Positions 5,527 through 16,025 of a DNA stretch of 16,025 bases are shown here, piece after piece. The notes under the pieces were generated by a model. That model had not been told where the DNA came from and did no database searches. It worked only from the letters and a program-made list of their open reading frames with translations. Source of the DNA: Bacteroidota bacterium (GTDB lineage Bacteria > Bacteroidota > Bacteroidia > Flavobacteriales > Flavobacteriaceae); contig JADFSQ010000011.1 in the NCBI GenBank assembly GCA_022560715.1, positions 1 through 16,025 of the forward strand, in the 5' to 3' direction. Numbering within the stretch: the first letter of the stretch is position 1; every line of letters starts with the position of its first letter. Position numbers and translations under genes: made by a program.

Positions 5527-8286
5527 TTAAACTTCTTTTTCTGTAAATGGAATTTCAGGATTACAGATTTCTAAAATTAAGGATTTAAGTTCGTTATAAA
5601 AAGATTCGAGCGTTTCTTGCGTAATTAAACTGTCTTTTTTAGCTCCAATCCCGATTTTATCTTTTTTAGAAAACTTTAAAAAGCCAGCTTTTAAATTTTT
5701 AAATGAGATTATTCCGGCTTCAACAGGATTTGTAAAAGGGATGCTTATATTTAGCATATAAGCATATATTAGTACTTGGAAGCTTTTGCTGTATTTTGTA
5801 TAATCGGTTGTTATGTCTTCCCAATTAATAATTTCTACTTTGCTTTGTTCTACCTTTCCTGTTTTGTAATCTATTATTCGCATAGTTCCATTATACTCAT
5901 CTACACGATCTACTTTTCCTTTAAGGATTACAGGAAAATCTAGCTCTGGGATATCTATACTTACATTTAGGGCGGTTTCTATTTGAAGAATTTTAATGGT
6001 GTTTCCTTGTTTTAAGGTTTCTATTTCAGCGTTTAAAAAGTTAGATATATAGCGTTTTGCAATTTCAAAAATAATGAGATTTTTGCCTTTAGTAATATCA
6101 CCTTCTTTGTATATTTTATGAAAATGTAAAAAAACTTTTTCAGCAATATTTTGTTTCATGGTTTTTACAGCTTCAACCGATAAAAACCCATCAATCAAAG
6201 GGGTATACAAATCTTCTAAAGTATTATGTATAACAGTTCCTAAAGTATTAGAGGCTACAATTTCTTCAGCAGAATCTTCTTCTTTTATTTCTAAAATTTT
6301 TTGATAATAAAAATCAATAGGATTCCTCATATAGTTGGTTAAGGAAGAAGGAGAAAATCCATTTGAAGCTACAGACTTTATTTTAGACATCATTAGTTCT
6401 GTTTTAGGCACAGAAATTAATTGTGTTTTAATTATTGGAGTTTTTGGAGCAACAATAAACTGCTTTAGATTGTGGATACCTTCAATTTCAAGTTGAGTAA
6501 TAAATCTACTCTTCTCTCCACCATTTAACACGTCTGGTTCAGTATTATATAAAATATAGATGTTTTTGGCACGCTGTAACAATCTATAAAAATGATATGT
6601 ATATACTGCATCCTTCTCTTTGTAAGTTGGCAGTCCATTTTCAATCTTTACACCATAAGGAATAAAGGAATTGTTGCTTTTCCCGGAAGGTAAAATCCCT
6701 TCGTTGACGGATGAAATAATTACAGTTTCGAAATCTAATACGCGAGATTCAAGCATCCCCATAATTTGTAAACCTTGTAAGGGTTCACCTTGAAAATCCA
6801 AAGTTTCATTATTTAAAATTTCCATATACAAACTATGCAACACCTTAATTGAATTGATATAATTATATTTAAAATTGAGTTCATTAAGGATATTAAAAAC
6901 TTCATGAAATTTGTATAAATATTCTAAACCTAGAAGATTTTCGTTTTTATTTAGGTTAAGATGCTCCTTTAAAATCAATATAAGTTCAGCACAGTTTTGC
7001 AATGCGATTTTAGGACTCTCTTCCCAACTATCAAATATCAGAGCTATAATATCTTTTTTTTCAATGGCAAGGCTTATAAGTTTGTCTTTAGATAAATAGA
7101 TGAGGTTGTTAGCTTGAATGTTTTTGATAATATTTTCAGCTAAATTGGTTTTTTTTATATTAAATAAAGGTCTGATGAACTGATGAGATAAAAGCGATAT
7201 GATATCTTTATAATAATAAAAAGCTTTATTGTTTTTATGGAGTGTAAATAATTTATCGAACAATGATGCCAATGGTATTATTCTTAAAGGCAATCCCATT
7301 GTAATGTTTAAAGATTCAATGTTTTTTGGGATAGAATTTAAAAGAGGAATAAGGAGGTTTTCGTCACCTAAAACAACAGCAGTATTATTTAGATTATTAT
7401 TTTCATTTTTTTGTTTAAGTAATAACTCTCCAATATATTTTGCTTGACCAACATTTTTTGGAATTCCAATAATTGAAATATTTTTTTCTTTGTTATAATT
7501 TTTGGATACCCATTTAAAAGTATGGGTTTTATAATACCTCCAATTTTTTTTATGCATCTTAACAAAAAAGCCAGCGTCATGATTTGTAGTATTAATGAAT
7601 GAATCATCAATATCCCAATAAATATCTGCCAGATCATTATGAAGCAATTCTTGAATTATGGTTTCTTCAGCAGTATTTAAAGCATTAAAGCCAATGAAAA
7701 TATGTTTTTTATCCTGATTAGTCTGTATGTAGCTTTCAATATTTTCTACAGCCTCCCTATATATCAATCCTTGATATCCAAAGCCTTTATTTATAAGATG
7801 ATTTGTTAAACTTGCATACGTAGTGTTTAATTTTTTCCAAAAAGAAAGGTAATTTTTAATTAATTGGGTTTGATTATTTTCAAGCGACCAATGATTAATA
7901 TCCTGAATGGCGCTTAAATAATTAAATATTTTCTCTTGAGGAATTAAGTAACGATCTATTTCGTTAAAATCTTGTAACAGTATTTGTGCCCATTTTGAAA
8001 AAGTATCAAAATTGTCTAAGTTCTCTTTTGAAGTATTTTTAAGATATATACAATAAAATTCAAAAAGCAACTCAATGTTTGAGAGTTGTTTTAATTGAGA
8101 CAATTCTTCCACAAATTCCTCTATACTTAAAATGTAAGGAGAGAAAAAAGTTTGAGAGTAAATATTAGATAGTTCTTGTTTTAAAAAAACACCAGCACGT
8201 TTACTTGGTAGTATATAGGTAAAATCCGAAATGTTAACGTTCTTTTTTTTTAGATCATTTAAAACGTCATTGATAAAACTTGCCAT
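5527..8286 (-). CDS. addB: AddB-like PD-(D/E)XK nuclease, 919 aa
   Basis: Likely the AddB partner of the AddA-type helicase-nuclease encoded at 11048-14188; together they would resect DNA double-strand ends for RecA-dependent repair. The N-terminus (YILPSKRAGVFLKQEL, ~25-40) looks like the inactivated helicase fold of AddB, without an intact Walker A GxGKT. The C-terminal nuclease is complete: LGTVIHNTLEDLY (His687), GKVDRVD (Asp793), IIDYKTGK (Asp806, Lys808) and SFQVLIYAY (Gln837). The cysteines that bind a 4Fe-4S cluster in classical AddB are missing: the usual RCP is RNP near residue 655, and only one Cys occurs after it. ATG at 8286 lies 10 bp after a large palindrome. The symbol follows from nuclease family and pairing with addA, so treat it as functional equivalence. 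Confidence 0.82.
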   Translation of the reverse strand: MASFINDVLNDLKKKNVNISDFTYILPSKRAGVFLKQELSNIYSQTFFSPYILSIEEFVEELSQLKQLSNIELLFEFYCIYLKNTSKENLDNFDTFSKWAQILLQDFNEIDRYLIPQEKIFNYLSAIQDINHWSLENNQTQLIKNYLSFWKKLNTTYASLTNHLINKGFGYQGLIYREAVENIESYIQTNQDKKHIFIGFNALNTAEETIIQELLHNDLADIYWDIDDSFINTTNHDAGFFVKMHKKNWRYYKTHTFKWVSKNYNKEKNISIIGIPKNVGQAKYIGELLLKQKNENNNLNNTAVVLGDENLLIPLLNSIPKNIESLNITMGLPLRIIPLASLFDKLFTLHKNNKAFYYYKDIISLLSHQFIRPLFNIKKTNLAENIIKNIQANNLIYLSKDKLISLAIEKKDIIALIFDSWEESPKIALQNCAELILILKEHLNLNKNENLLGLEYLYKFHEVFNILNELNFKYNYINSIKVLHSLYMEILNNETLDFQGEPLQGLQIMGMLESRVLDFETVIISSVNEGILPSGKSNNSFIPYGVKIENGLPTYKEKDAVYTYHFYRLLQRAKNIYILYNTEPDVLNGGEKSRFITQLEIEGIHNLKQFIVAPKTPIIKTQLISVPKTELMMSKIKSVASNGFSPSSLTNYMRNPIDFYYQKILEIKEEDSAEEIVASNTLGTVIHNTLEDLYTPLIDGFLSVEAVKTMKQNIAEKVFLHFHKIYKEGDITKGKNLIIFEIAKRYISNFLNAEIETLKQGNTIKILQIETALNVSIDIPELDFPVILKGKVDRVDEYNGTMRIIDYKTGKVEQSKVEIINWEDITTDYTKYSKSFQVLIYAYMLNISIPFTNPVEAGIISFKNLKAGFLKFSKKDKIGIGAKKDSLITQETLESFYNELKSLILEICNPEIPFTEKEV

Positions 8287-8296
8287 TGTATAAAAA

Positions 8297-8330
8297 TAAA
8301 AAACGCTTCGAAATTTCGAAGCGTTTTTTA
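8297..8330 (-). terminator. Perfect palindrome / rho-independent terminator after ompA
   Basis: A 34-bp perfect palindrome centred between 8313 and 8314, with core ACGCTTCGAAATTTCGAAGCGT flanked by A-runs and T-runs. On the minus strand it lies 20 bp after the ompA stop and ends in a T tract, so it should stop ompA transcription. By symmetry it would also work in the other direction. It ends only 10 bp before the AddB-like start codon. Confidence 0.85.
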
Positions 8331-8350: not shown

Positions 8351-9712
8351 TTAGTTTTTAATCAAATTGATTTCAACTCTTCTATTTCTTTCTCTACCTT
8401 CTCTAGTGTCGTTTGTCATAAGCGGTTGAGATTCTCCGAATCCTCTACTTACTAAACGAGAACTATCAATACCATTCTCAACTAACCAATCTACCACAGC
8501 TTGCGATCTGTTTTTAGACAAGGTCATATTGCTTTCATCACTTCCAACACTATCAGTATGACCATCTATATTAAAATGTGCACGATGATACTCTTTTAAT
8601 ATTTCTGCAATATTACCAAGAATTTCTGCAGATTCGAATTTAATATCTGATTTTCCAGTTTTAAATAGAATAGTTTTTACATAATCGTTTAATGCTTTTT
8701 TAACTGCTTCCGGAAGTTCTGGGCAACCATTATTAGCCACTGTTCCAGGTTCGTTAGGACATTGGTCGTCTTTATCTAAAACACCATCACCATCACTATC
8801 AGGCCAAGGACAACCATTATTTGCAACCGGACCAGCTTCGTTAGGACATTCATCGTCACCATCAACAATACCATCACCATCAGCATCAGGACAACCATCT
8901 AAAGATTTTAAACCTGGAGTGTTAGGACATTTATCCGTATTGTCTGGAACACCATCACCATCGCTATCTGGACAGCCATCAAATTCAGCTAAACCAGCTT
9001 CATTTGGACAAGTGTCTTTACTATCTTCAATACCATCACCATCAGAATCTGGACAGCCATTAAATGCTGCAAGACCTGGAACTTCAGGGCAAGCATCATC
9101 TTTATCATAAATGCCATCACCATCAGTATCTTTACCACCAAATTTAATCGACACTCCTAAAGAATGTTGAAAATGTTTAGGTAAATAATCTTCGAAAGAG
9201 TGCTTATAAGAAGATTGCGCAGTAAGTCCCCAATTATCATTAAACCAATAGTTTATACCAAAAGTACCATTAAAAGTACCAGCTCCAATATCGTCTATCC
9301 ATGTGTAACCACCACCAACACCAAGATATGGCTCAAATTTTTCACAGTTTAAAAGGTCTGACAGACTATATTTAATTATTGCGTCAAGGCCAAAATAACT
9401 TAAACCGTCAACTGCAGCATCCCCCCATTTATCAATTTTATTTATTGATCCCGTAACACCAAGAGAGAATCCGTCTCCAAGGTATTTAGATACTGTTACA
9501 GTACTTAATGAACTTACAATATTGTAATGGTCGTTGACATTGAAGAATTCGACAAAATAATCTCCCAATGGAGCATCTTCTCCAGTTGGAAAAATATCAA
9601 CTGCATTTACCCCAAAACTAAATTGCCAAGGATTGTTGTCGTCTTGTGCGTTTGCGTTGCTATATCCAAGTGTTAGCAATAAAGCGAACATTAATCGGCT
9701 AAAATTTTTCAT
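8351..9712 (-). CDS. OmpA family outer-membrane protein with thrombospondin type 3 repeats, 453 aa
   Basis: Tethers the outer membrane to peptidoglycan. Residues 1-22 form a signal peptide (cut at SNANA-QDD). Residues ~28-192 are an eight-strand-type beta barrel with alternating aromatic strands. Residues ~195-334 carry five calcium-binding repeats of D-x-DGDG-x-x-D...CPN...GCP type (Cys pairs conserved). Residues ~340-453 are the OmpA C-domain with GHTDSVG and SKNRSQAV. Asp387 and Arg402, 15 residues apart, match the pair that binds diaminopimelate in OmpA. The gene stands alone: it has its own strong promoter and is closed by a palindromic terminator. This architecture is usual for abundant flavobacterial outer-membrane proteins. 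Confidence 0.95.
8723..9130 (-). repeat. Five tandem 81-bp-type repeats encoding calcium-binding TSP3 units
   Basis: The segment encodes five units beginning DTDGDG, DSDGDG, DSDGDG, DADGDG and DSDGDG. The first three are spaced 27 residues (81 bp) apart; the fourth is 29 residues because of an added WP. Each has a CPN/CPE and a GCP. Such repeats bind Ca2+ in the linker between barrel and peptidoglycan domain, and repeat number can vary by slippage or recombination. Confidence 0.9.
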
Positions 9713-14458: not shown

Positions 14459-15067
14459 ATGGCTTTCGAATTACCAGAATTAGGATACGCTTACGATGCT
14501 TTAGAGCCACATATTGATGCTCGAACAATGGAAATTCATCATTCTAAACATCATAATGCTTATACAAATAATTTAAATAATGCTATTGCTGGAACAGATA
14601 TAGAAGGAACATCTATTGAAGATATTCTTGCTAATTTGGACATGAATAATGGTGCGGTTAGAAATAATGGAGGCGGATTTTACAACCACTCTTTATTTTG
14701 GACTGTCATGAATCCAGAAGACAAAGGATATTTATCAGGAGAATTAAAAGATGCTATTGAAGCCGAATTTGGTTCGGTTGATGCTTTTAAAGAAGCTTTT
14801 TCAAAAGCAGCCGCAACGCGTTTTGGCTCTGGTTGGGCTTGGTTATGTGTACACAAAGGAGGTAGAGTTGAAGTTTGCTCTACGCCAAATCAAGATAACA
14901 CTTTAATGCCAGAAGTTGGTTGTGGTGGCACACCAATTTTAGGTTTGGATGTTTGGGAACATGCATACTATTTAAACTATCAGAATCGCAGACCAGATTA
15001 TATAAATGCCTTTTTTAATGTAATTAATTGGAACGAAGTAGAACGAAGATATGCTAACGCAAAATAA
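14459..15067 (+). CDS. sodA: Superoxide dismutase, Mn/Fe type (probably Mn), 202 aa
   Basis: Converts superoxide to oxygen and hydrogen peroxide. All four metal ligands are present: His27 (MEIHHSKHH), His77 (NHSLFW), Asp164 and His168 (DVWEHAYYL). The second-sphere Gln is in NQDN (about residue 145) in the C-terminal half, as in Mn enzymes, with Gly in [11 protein letters not shown], rather than the N-terminal Gln of Fe enzymes. A cambialistic enzyme cannot be excluded. There is no signal peptide, so it is cytoplasmic. ATG at 14459 gives the usual family length and N-terminus ([15 protein letters not shown]). It is monocistronic, with a -7 box upstream and palindromes and a terminator hairpin downstream. 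Confidence 0.97.
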
Positions 15068-15102: not shown

Positions 15103-15120
15103 TCCCGATAGCTATCGGGA
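15103..15120. repeat. 18-bp perfect palindrome after sodA
   Basis: TCCCGATAGCTATCGGGA is self-complementary over its full length and lies 36 bp after the sodA stop. This type of palindrome is, from memory, widespread between genes in Bacteroidetes. It may form part of the sodA 3' end together with the hairpin at 15139-15168. Confidence 0.8.
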
Positions 15121-15138: not shown

Positions 15139-15168
15139 AAAAAAGGTGAACGAGAGTTCACCTTTTTT
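15139..15168. terminator. Bidirectional terminator hairpin (13-bp stem)
   Basis: AAAAAAGGTGAAC and GTTCACCTTTTTT pair perfectly around a GAGA loop, giving a strong stem flanked by A and T tracts on both strands. It can end sodA transcription from the left and the minus-strand small RNA unit from the right. Confidence 0.85.
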
Positions 15169-15209
15169 GCCCCAAATCTACCATAAACTTAACCTACTTA
15201 TGTTATGGT
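15139..15209 (-). ncRNA. Candidate small RNA, copy 1
   Basis: Read on the minus strand this is a complete small unit: a 7-bp hairpin ACCATAA/TTATGGT with a 16-nt loop, the single-stranded linker AGATTTGGGGC, then a terminator with a 13-bp stem and T tract, about 71 nt in all. A perfect TAnnTTTG box (TATATTTG, 15221-15214) ends 4 bp before the first base, so the RNA would start at or next to the hairpin. A near-identical copy lies 270 bp away in the same orientation. It may belong to the Flavo-1 structured RNA family of Bacteroidetes, but I could not check the covariance model. Otherwise it is an uncharacterised repeat. Confidence 0.5.
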
Positions 15210-15213
15210 AAGC

Positions 15214-15221
15214 CAAATATA
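15214..15221 (-). promoter_or_regulatory. -7 box of candidate small RNA copy 1
   Basis: TATATTTG on the minus strand matches TAnnTTTG exactly and lies 4 bp upstream of the conserved RNA-like unit. No good TTTG -33 box is visible. Confidence 0.45.
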
Positions 15222-15318
15222 ATATTGCTTTTCGGAAATTGTAAAATTTATTAGACAAAATACTAATAAATTAGTCTAACAGTTATTGATAGTAAAAATT
15301 TAAGACGAATAAATGAAC

Positions 15319-15344
15319 TACCTCGACGCAGAGCGTACGAGGTA
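15319..15344. repeat. Hairpin repeat with CGACGC-AGA-GCGT core, copy 1
   Basis: TACCTCG pairs with CGAGGTA and ACGC with GCGT around an AGA loop, leaving one bulged A at 15337. It shares its core with the hairpin at 15371-15385, so the two are related copies of an intergenic palindromic repeat. Confidence 0.75.
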
Positions 15345-15370
15345 TCAAATAGGAATTCCTTTTTTTATTT

Positions 15371-15385
15371 CGACGCAGAGCGTCG
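15371..15385. repeat. Hairpin repeat with CGACGC-AGA-GCGTCG core, copy 2
   Basis: CGACGC-AGA-GCGTCG is a perfect 6-bp stem with a 3-base loop. It is followed by CGGG-GAATTAAA-CCCG, which can form a second, alternative hairpin sharing the CGGG. It has the same orientation and core as the copy at 15319-15344. Confidence 0.75.
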
Positions 15386-15408
15386 GGGAATTAAACCCGA
15401 AAAACGAT

Positions 15409-15481
15409 AAAAAAAGGTGAACAAGAGTTCACCTTTTTTTGCCCCAAATCTACCATGAACTTAACCTACTTATGTTATGGT
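15409..15481 (-). ncRNA. Candidate small RNA, copy 2
   Basis: Second copy of the unit at 15139-15209, same orientation. The 16-nt loop and linker AGATTTGGGGC are identical. The first stem has one change (ACCATAA/TCATGGT) that replaces A-U by G-U and so keeps the pairing. The terminator stem is 14 bp with an AAGA loop in place of GAGA on the plus strand. At the same 4-bp spacing upstream is TAAATTAG (15493-15486), one mismatch from TAnnTTTG, so this copy may be more weakly transcribed. Its terminator also lies downstream of the purF end on the same strand and may serve purF. Confidence 0.45.
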
Positions 15482-15591
15482 GCATCTAATTTAATTGTAT
15501 TTTGTTTAATGGCTCTAAATAATAGACGAAATGCATTTTTTTTAGTTTAAACGCTATTTTTTTAGATGAAATGCTAATAATTATGGTTTTA

Positions 15592-16025
15592 CTAATATGC
15601 TCGTTCTTTGTTTCCTTCGTAAAAATTTATGAATGCTCGGTTAACAACTCTATTACCTCCAGCCGTTGGATAGTTACCTGTAAAATACCAGTCTCCTAAA
15701 TTTTTCGGACAAGCTTTGTGTAAATTTTCAATAGGCTGAAAAATGATTTTCACATCAGCTTTTATAGTGTTATTACAAACCAATTCAGCTATTTTATCTG
15801 AGATTTGTTCAGCAGTAAAAAGACTATAAATATCTTTTACATAATTTTTTACTTCCTTATCCTGAAGACCAACTTGAGCTTTACATTTATTATAAATAGT
15901 TTTAACAATGTGATATTTATCAACATCCTTTAAAAGCTCTAATGCCGCTTTAAATGCGATGAGGCTTTCTAAATTTGCCATATCAATACCATAACAATCT
16001 GGATAACGAATTTGAGGTGCCGATG
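15592..16025 (-). CDS. purF: Amidophosphoribosyltransferase, C-terminal part (runs off the right edge)
   Basis: First committed enzyme of purine synthesis: it makes 5-phosphoribosylamine from PRPP and glutamine. The frame is open through the last bases of the window and reads SAPQIRYPDCYGIDM before the codons that follow the internal Met at 15981. CYGIDM is a hallmark of the phosphoribosyltransferase domain. The tail (IFQPIENLHKACP, LGDWYFTGNYPTAGGN, ending NFYEGNKERAY) matches the long (~630 aa) PurF form of Flavobacteriaceae as I recall it. The start and the N-terminal glutaminase domain lie outside the window, so the Met at 15981 is not the true start. About 144 codons are visible. Confidence 0.92.
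   Translation of the reverse strand, partial: SAPQIRYPDCYGIDMANLESLIAFKAALELLKDVDKYHIVKTIYNKCKAQVGLQDKEVKNYVKDIYSLFTAEQISDKIAELVCNNTIKADVKIIFQPIENLHKACPKNLGDWYFTGNYPTAGGNRVVNRAFINFYEGNKERAY

Follow-up and report, generated by a model that had tools for sequence, protein, structure and literature searches.

Flavobacteriaceae are major polymer degraders of the sea and the soil and, to our knowledge, post-transcriptional control in this family has been little charted. LytTR-controlled sRNAs are known from the Firmicutes, e.g. RNAIII with AgrA and FasX with FasA. The closest described systems are found within the Bacteroidota: according to the sections of PMC11697453 that deal with them, the FopS/GibS RNAs of Bacteroides, described together with RbpB, are multicopy sRNAs of ~65–70 nt with a conserved seed and sigma-A-type promoters, and FopS pairs at the translation initiation regions of envelope-protein mRNAs (SusC), which it represses. 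Rfp18 of Flavobacterium psychrophilum is, as far as its description in PMC9723704 goes, conserved beyond the species and has secreted proteases and an adhesin as predicted targets; its knock-out lowered target mRNA, i.e. a positive action. Here we analysed a stretch of flavobacterial DNA of 16,025 nt (the window), in which two tandem units lie downstream of a purF-like gene. In our best reading of the comparative data, these belong to a putative new family of tandem base-pairing sRNAs.

Two tandem units in the window

Both units are ~72 nt long and lie on the minus strand of positions 15139–15481 (Table 1), forming a 61-nt direct repeat with 89 % identity and a start-to-start distance of 272. 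An earlier note, made from the letters alone, had proposed twin promoter-to-terminator units at this place, and these are real, i.e. the sequence, the repeat, both terminators and the box-to-RNA spacing were all found. The 16-nt stretch that it had called a loop, CATAAGTAGGTTAAGT, and the linker AGATTTGGGGC agree exactly between the copies, as claimed. The exact promoter spacing was likewise found, the −7 box lying at −12 to −5 of 15481 and 15209, with both +1 positions being predicted by the −12 to −5 rule, which in the part of PMC9723704 on promoters describes a sigma-A box TAnnTTTG at this distance from mapped starts of F. psychrophilum.

The two copies are identical from +1 to the end of the terminator except for a C/T change, a single A in the A tract, a single T in the T tract and a base of the terminator loop. 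The A-tract base and the C/T change had been reported before, the T had not; the reading of the C/T change as one that preserves a stem is not needed, since the predicted duplex with a target in the same genome is equally good for either copy (−22.7 and −22.8 kcal/mol). Each terminator hairpin is flanked by a T run and, on the opposite side, by an A run.

Table 1. Features predicted or annotated in the window
Feature	Position	Strand	Remarks
Putative sRNA gene, copy A	15409..15481	−	predicted +1 = 15481; terminator stem end = 15409
Putative sRNA gene, copy B	15139..15209	−	predicted +1 = 15209; terminator stem end = 15139
Candidate antisense core, copy A	15442..15474	−	CATAAGTAGGTTAAGTTCATGGTAGATTTGGGG = RNA nt 8–40; leader/start-codon seed and G-rich seed for mRNA 5′ end
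Candidate antisense core, copy B	15170..15202	−	one C to T change relative to copy A
Predicted sigma-A −7 box, copy A	15486..15493	−	TAAATTAG; from sequence and the rule given in PMC9723704
Predicted sigma-A −7 box, copy B	15214..15221	−	TATATTTG; from sequence and the rule given in PMC9723704
Intrinsic terminator, copy A	15409..15440	−	14 pairs; stem covaries across family
Intrinsic terminator, copy B	15139..15168	−	13 pairs; stem covaries across family
LytTR/AlgR-like direct repeats (three), copy A	15522..15574	−	20-bp steps; read by eye; GCATTTCATCTAA 15574–15562, GCGTTTAAACTAA 15554–15542, GCATTTCGTCTAT 15534–15522
LytTR/AlgR-like direct repeats (two), copy B	15251..15283	−	20 bp; read by eye; ACTGTTAGACTAA 15283–15271, GTATTTTGTCTAA 15263–15251
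purF-like gene, 3′ part, upstream neighbour of the units	15592..16023	−	conserved synteny
Fe/Mn superoxide dismutase, convergent downstream neighbour	14459..15067	+	Pfam Sod_Fe_N and Sod_Fe_C; conserved synteny

Other inverted elements were seen in the window. A hairpin-forming repeat, GACGCAGAGCGTC, occurs twice in the spacer between the units (15323–15336 and 15370–15383) and, among 411 loci, only in the five that represent this same locus. The perfect palindrome CCCGATAGCTATCGGG lies 3′ of the sod gene (15104–15119) and recurs, with one mismatch allowed, in 11/411 loci, five of which are again this same locus. Further away, a strong A/T-flanked hairpin at 8297–8330 separates the minus-strand genes 5527–8286 and 8351–9712; its Rfam matches are all sub-threshold.

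A cmscan of the whole window against Rfam 15 at E≤10 gave no family at gathering score over the units, which agrees with the proposal of an RNA family new to Rfam; the sub-gathering rows that overlap the units are STnc40, MicX, STnc250, STnc320 and GibS, and GibS has no match above chance in the window. Membership of Flavo-1 (presumably RF01705), also a flavobacterial RNA motif, had been considered and is not borne out, as the same scan returned no Flavo-1 row. The core sequence has no exact occurrence in open-licence PMC papers, and the papers listed there for Flavobacterium sRNAs, LytTR and T9SS showed no sign of this RNA. Two other origins were rejected: a short coding sequence within the unit (with an ATG further on in the core), because differences in A-tract length put the copies in different frames and inspection by eye revealed no synonymous pattern, and a viral one, the core pattern having 0 exact matches in viral_contigs.

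Distribution and conservation

A blast of the unit across genomes, as suggested in the earlier note, matched 240 of 299 genomes of Flavobacteriaceae (76-nt copy-B query, E≤1e-3), far more than chance would give, covering 192 of the 236 genera sampled; a few of the matching genomes, e.g. G019 and G295, are near the threshold. At least 118 stretches of named genomes contain the exact core pattern, and the matches listed (80) come from Zobellia, Maribacter, Winogradskyella, Aquimarina, Flavobacterium and others, or from unclassified Flavobacteriia, Bacteroidetes or Bacteroidota bins, the named genera being ones that we take to be Flavobacteriaceae. When 246 genomes of the order were searched with a covariance model under Infernal's stricter filters, matches below about 1e-6 were confined to Flavobacteriaceae. 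Weak matches (best 4.6e-5) appeared in 24 genomes from other families, and in 9/24 they cover the 3′ part of the model only.

The 118 loci from named genomes hold 1–6 units each, two having none by a stricter test, and the median unit spacing is 206 bp (124 gaps). Both a purF-like gene and SOD flank the units in 82 loci, purF alone in 21, SOD alone in 11 and neither in four, although a missing neighbour may be due to truncation since the loci are of limited length. Where scored, the purF-like gene is on the sRNA strand in 101/101 cases and SOD is convergent in 93/93. The former is so named because a relative in L041 matches the NCBIfam purF model at 1.8e-26, below the curated cut-off; the piece in the window has no Pfam match.

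The stretch AAGTAGGTTAAGTT hardly changes across 339 distinct copies, an invariance that is partly circular, as many copies were fetched by the exact core pattern and the script required at least 12/14 core bases; copies found by BLAST nevertheless look alike in this respect. The terminator stem varies, with compensatory changes at 8/9 consensus pairs. The earlier note had named as its counter-test a loop and linker that vary freely beside a conserved terminator, and the opposite is seen, i.e. there is hardly any variation in core and linker, whereas the stem of the terminator varies with compensation.

The conserved 7-bp 5′ hairpin that had also been postulated is not confirmed. Two of 264 distinct units were dropped for abnormal length or stem, 70 diverse units were chosen from the other 262, and all of these except L157:2419-2493 entered alignment A1. 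Its 69 copies show no covariation in the hairpin, the sixth pair (columns 8–27) is broken in 48/69, and although 85.1 % of cells pair, shuffles reach that value in 497/500 cases. The 45-nt heads, taken without the first two nucleotides, are no more stably folded than shuffled sequences (z 0.23 and 0.77); copy A, unlike copy B, has a bulged variant of the hairpin as its minimum-energy fold. Given a hairpin without covariation and a nearly invariant core, selection seems to act on the sequence and not on the 5′ fold.

This bears on the question of whether the units are more than terminators. Their place between convergent genes, together with hairpins whose T and A runs could stop transcription on both strands, would suit terminators or DNA repeats without any RNA function, e.g. 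for insulation between the purF-like and sod genes. The core is, however, more conserved than the terminator, the −7 box keeps its exact position, matched targets exist (see below) and copies also occur outside the purF/sod locus (L274–L277); we thus consider such an explanation extremely improbable. The preference of the earlier note for sRNA genes over mere terminators is supported by this sequence comparison, i.e. by the conserved core and linker and by the box position.

Promoters and upstream direct repeats

Of the 290 class I promoters, 232 have TAnnTT at −12; 47 copies are treated below as class II. Further upstream, the box TT[TC][AG][TA]C[TCG][AG]A precedes 185/339 copies (13.25 expected in shuffles), with boxes clustering about 50 and 70 nt upstream of +1 and a box-to-box spacing of 20 or 21 bp in 82/107 pairs. 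Repeat pairs 19–22 apart are found in 78/290 class I promoters, compared with 0.12 in shuffles. As described in the relevant parts of the sources, LytTR regulators bind direct repeats with mostly 12 bp between them (PMC6193735), and the core site of AlgR is CCGTTCGTC (PMC4064291). The period of 20–21 bp agrees with the arrangement given there for LytTR promoters, i.e. two upstream direct repeats with 11–13 bp between them (PMC6193735), and the L059 copy matches the AlgR core CCGTTCGTC exactly. Based on the repeat period and the AlgR-like core, the sRNA promoters are probably activated by a LytTR-type response regulator. The direct repeats might nevertheless be bound by some other factor, a possibility to be taken seriously considering that the upstream boxes are degenerate and AT-rich, even if the period and the CCGTTCGTC-like core fit published LytTR/AlgR sites.

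Class II copies have the linker GGGA[CT]; the repeat pair was found in 0/47 and a single box in 3/47. They carry a different conserved upstream block, CAATACCAGTAaTTTAGT, which is perhaps a second regulatory input. Several of them (e.g. L084:1697, L091 and L067:2110), in many cases the unit closest to sod, show a GGGACGAAAAGGG-type linker, and the upstream block CAATACCAGTAATTTAGTATTG contains an inverted repeat.

Complementary mRNA leaders

Short mRNA leaders, e.g. ACCAAATCT..ACCTACTT-ATG, hold sequence complementary to the core (RNA nt 8–38), and the start codon is part of the match. Antisense-like BLAST matches in the genus led to two such leaders, one belonging to an adhesin-like protein in which Pfam finds a T9SS sorting domain (L034/L224) and the other to a small ORF (L027/L029), both with similar repeats upstream; matches inside coding genes (e.g. 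L005, L011, L033 and L036) were dropped as targets. Searching the genus for the repeat of these two leaders, GCATTTCATCGATT, gave six sites in 3/5 genomes, all six preceding genes whose leaders hold CCAAA-type complements of the sRNA. Three were already known, and the other three, for which there was no selection on complementarity, represent two further families: a lipoprotein with a CAP domain (L223, L225) and, in L227, a secreted protein. Over the whole leader, the duplexes of L227 (z 0.3) and L272 (z 1.0) are no better than shuffled.

The bipartite antisense pattern CCCAAA-N0-16-CTTAACCTA matched mostly the sRNAs themselves in 60 genomes, plus 16 other sites, which compared with 19 for the reversed pattern is no genome-wide excess; placement alone differs, with 9/16 sites at most 40 nt before an ATG-ORF against 0/19 by a strict script. 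One of these nine, L265, comes from G029, a genome without a detected sRNA. Four of the fetched sites were extra sRNA copies, and G038:C1:1254508, which was not fetched, was also taken for one.

A pattern joining the repeat to CCAAATCT over N22-52 was found at 47 places in 149 genomes, against 15 for its reversed form, and 11/30 loci against 0/15 reversed ones are true leaders by script; five more (L278, L291, L296, L301, L306) were recognized by eye, a look not given to the controls. Of 28/149 genomes without the sRNA, three had a match, and neither of the two that were read is a leader. ACCTA between CCAAATCT and ATG was found in 5/15 cases (2.24 by shuffling), which is weak taken alone; this count was made without L298, L287, L223 and L258, and L298 was also left out of the duplex energies, which for pattern-selected leaders are biased by selection, and of the Pfam set.

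Several targets carry the same direct repeats as the sRNA promoters. Among 31 target promoters, most of them selected for one box and with L298 and L287 left out, 11/18 box pairs are 19–21 bp apart. It is common for a site to begin at the predicted 5′ end of the mRNA, e.g. in L284 and L300, where CCAAATCT directly follows the −7 box. Pfam recognized CAP in five and Peptidase_S8 in two of 32 candidate target proteins, with single members having PorP_SprF, thioredoxin, cleaved adhesin, LRR, FG-GAP, esterase, a T9SS sorting tail and others, and 24/33 candidates have signal-peptide-like starts as judged by eye.

CAP-lipoprotein leaders collected by homology

A fairer test than the energies of pattern-selected leaders is one in which the genes are collected by protein homology. 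CAP-lipoprotein genes were so found in 70/100 genomes; the best match was taken from 69, G083 (stops) being left out, paralogous genes were not used, and without L398, which lacks a start codon, 68 leaders remained. The family had been chosen after five leaders were seen (L223, L225, L259, L269, L273), four of whose genomes are among the 68. With z-scores from mononucleotide shuffles, 39/68 CAP leaders pair with the sRNA at z≤−2, compared with 8/84 SOD and 9/200 generic leaders; at z≤−3 the counts are 21/68, 2/84 and 2/200. CCAAATCT or CCCAAA is present in 42/68, 1/84 and 7/200 leaders, and ACCTA in 28/68, 4/84 and 7/200, respectively. The other 29/68 CAP leaders have z above −2, and in the sRNA-lacking genomes G007 and G051 the values are −0.6 (L391) and −0.2 (L380).

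ACCAAATCTAAATTTACCTACTTATG is a typical leader; in the predicted duplex it is paired over its whole length, including the start codon, with sRNA nt 8–38, with two sRNA-side bulges and −27.6 kcal/mol. The genome of the window itself has CCCAAATCTAAAATACCTACGATG before its CAP gene, the predicted duplex being that of −22.7 kcal/mol given above.

Other layouts occur among the CAP leaders. Those of L384, L386, L389, L390, L393 and L394 (variants L387, L396, L400) are GCATCATGCCCCAAATTTGATGCCCCC-like and unusual in that nine nucleotides match the linker ATTTGGGGC and GCATCA/TGATGC forms an inverted repeat. Those of L392, L399, L402, L403 and L407 (variants L406, L410) have CCTACTTAC-type sites roughly 15–40 nt before ATG, not at ATG.

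Proposed mode of action

Overall, the interpretation of the earlier note is partly supported. Its proposal that core and G-rich linker are target-binding regions gains support from the leader complementarity; it missed the putative activator sites formed by the direct repeats, the tandem arrays that occur across the family and the targets. As expected of a base-pairing sRNA, the units have, by sequence, their own promoter and intrinsic terminator and show complementarity to mRNA translation starts above control. We consider it likely that they encode trans-acting sRNAs of ~72 nt from LytTR-activated tandem genes, which would mask the leader and AUG of mRNAs for secreted and envelope proteins and thereby repress them.

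Each copy would be transcribed from its own sigma-A promoter to its own terminator, with a LytTR-type response regulator at the 20–21-bp repeats as the probable activator. The core (about nt 8–38) would then pair in two parts with the short leaders: AGAUUUGG(GG) with (CC)CCAAAUCU, which lies at the predicted mRNA 5′ end or close to it, and CAUAAGUAGGUUAAG with CUUAACCUACUUAUG at and before the start codon. In the best cases the leader would be clamped end to end, most likely blocking ribosome entry so that translation is repressed. The repeats common to the sRNA and several targets would place both under co-control, resembling a feed-forward loop, and the dose may be set by the 1–6 tandem copies. 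The promoter, terminator and leader-pairing steps rest on comparative sequence evidence; transcription, repression and the LytTR-type activator we infer.

Two other readings take the same leader matches differently. The core could be a protein site and the RNA a sponge or scaffold, with the leaders matching through the same regulating protein. Conservation over ~31 nt exceeds that of usual seeds, and multicopy titrating RNAs of the RsmY/Z type do exist; a shared single-strand site does not, however, predict what is found, i.e. that the leaders hold the reverse complement of the core and not the same sequence, which makes a protein-binding RNA improbable. The other reading keeps the base-pairing sRNA but reverses its sign, so that pairing with the leader and 5′ end would protect the mRNA from decay or promote translation. 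Activation of this kind would fit the sites that often begin at the predicted mRNA 5′ end (e.g. L284, L300), the promoter repeats in common, which suit co-induced partners, and the lowered mRNA of two metalloproteases after Rfp18 deletion, as described for that RNA in PMC9723704. Nonetheless, the AUG itself is covered in typical leaders, the leader in the window's own genome is unstructured when alone (0.0 kcal/mol) and so offers no inhibitory fold to open, and FopS represses by pairing near the start codon, according to its description in PMC11697453. Masking therefore seems likelier than opening, and we regard activation as rather unlikely.

With masking as the preferred reading, the data suggest a route for translation control in mRNAs without a Shine-Dalgarno sequence, namely antisense masking of the start codon. 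A near-invariant sRNA family in most genera sampled, with a readable target code (leader 5′ end and start codon) in front of genes for secreted and surface proteins, lends itself to testable predictions.

Small-ORF transcripts

Small-ORF genes in five genera (L222/L226, L268, L271, L278, L291) have the repeats upstream. The ORFs are 29–41 codons long (e.g. L222:1281-1403) and have KK[ILV]-type C-terminal ends, like TKKxFML. Antisense 7-mers cover 26–57 nt of their transcripts, compared with means of 5.8–8.6 in shuffles, although the 26 nt of L268 are inside the shuffle range (maximum 32), and they form 2–4 separate stretches against 0.71–1.12, of which one site each was selected by the antisense-containing searches and two are single 7-mers, perhaps due to chance. 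One of the stretches in L278 lies after the stop codon. Considering the several sRNA-complementary stretches in these transcripts, it is tempting to speculate, albeit with little confidence, on a closed circuit in which one repeat-bound regulator drives the tandem sRNAs, the secreted targets and the small-ORF mRNA, the latter being a co-induced, peptide-coding sponge that resets the sRNA.

Comparison with known systems

LytTR control would place the present RNA beside RNAIII/AgrA and FasX/FasA, which it resembles in an sRNA promoter with paired LytTR repeats upstream, while RNA and phylum are unrelated. By description, the likeness to FopS/GibS extends to multiple copies, a similar size, a conserved seed, a sigma-A-type promoter and the starts of envelope mRNAs. 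As far as their published account covers these points, FopS copies are located at many loci and pair through the 5′ end (nt 1–21 served as the query there), whereas most copies read here belong to one tandem locus, the proposed pairing involves nt 8–38 in two parts, LytTR-like boxes are found upstream and the host family is another. Rfp18, again compared by its description, is likewise a flavobacterial sRNA conserved beyond the species with secreted-protein targets. The main text of PMC9723704 mentions neither purF nor superoxide, and its account of Rfp18 has that RNA pairing through a third stem-loop (PMC9723704), whereas the present one has a single strong hairpin.
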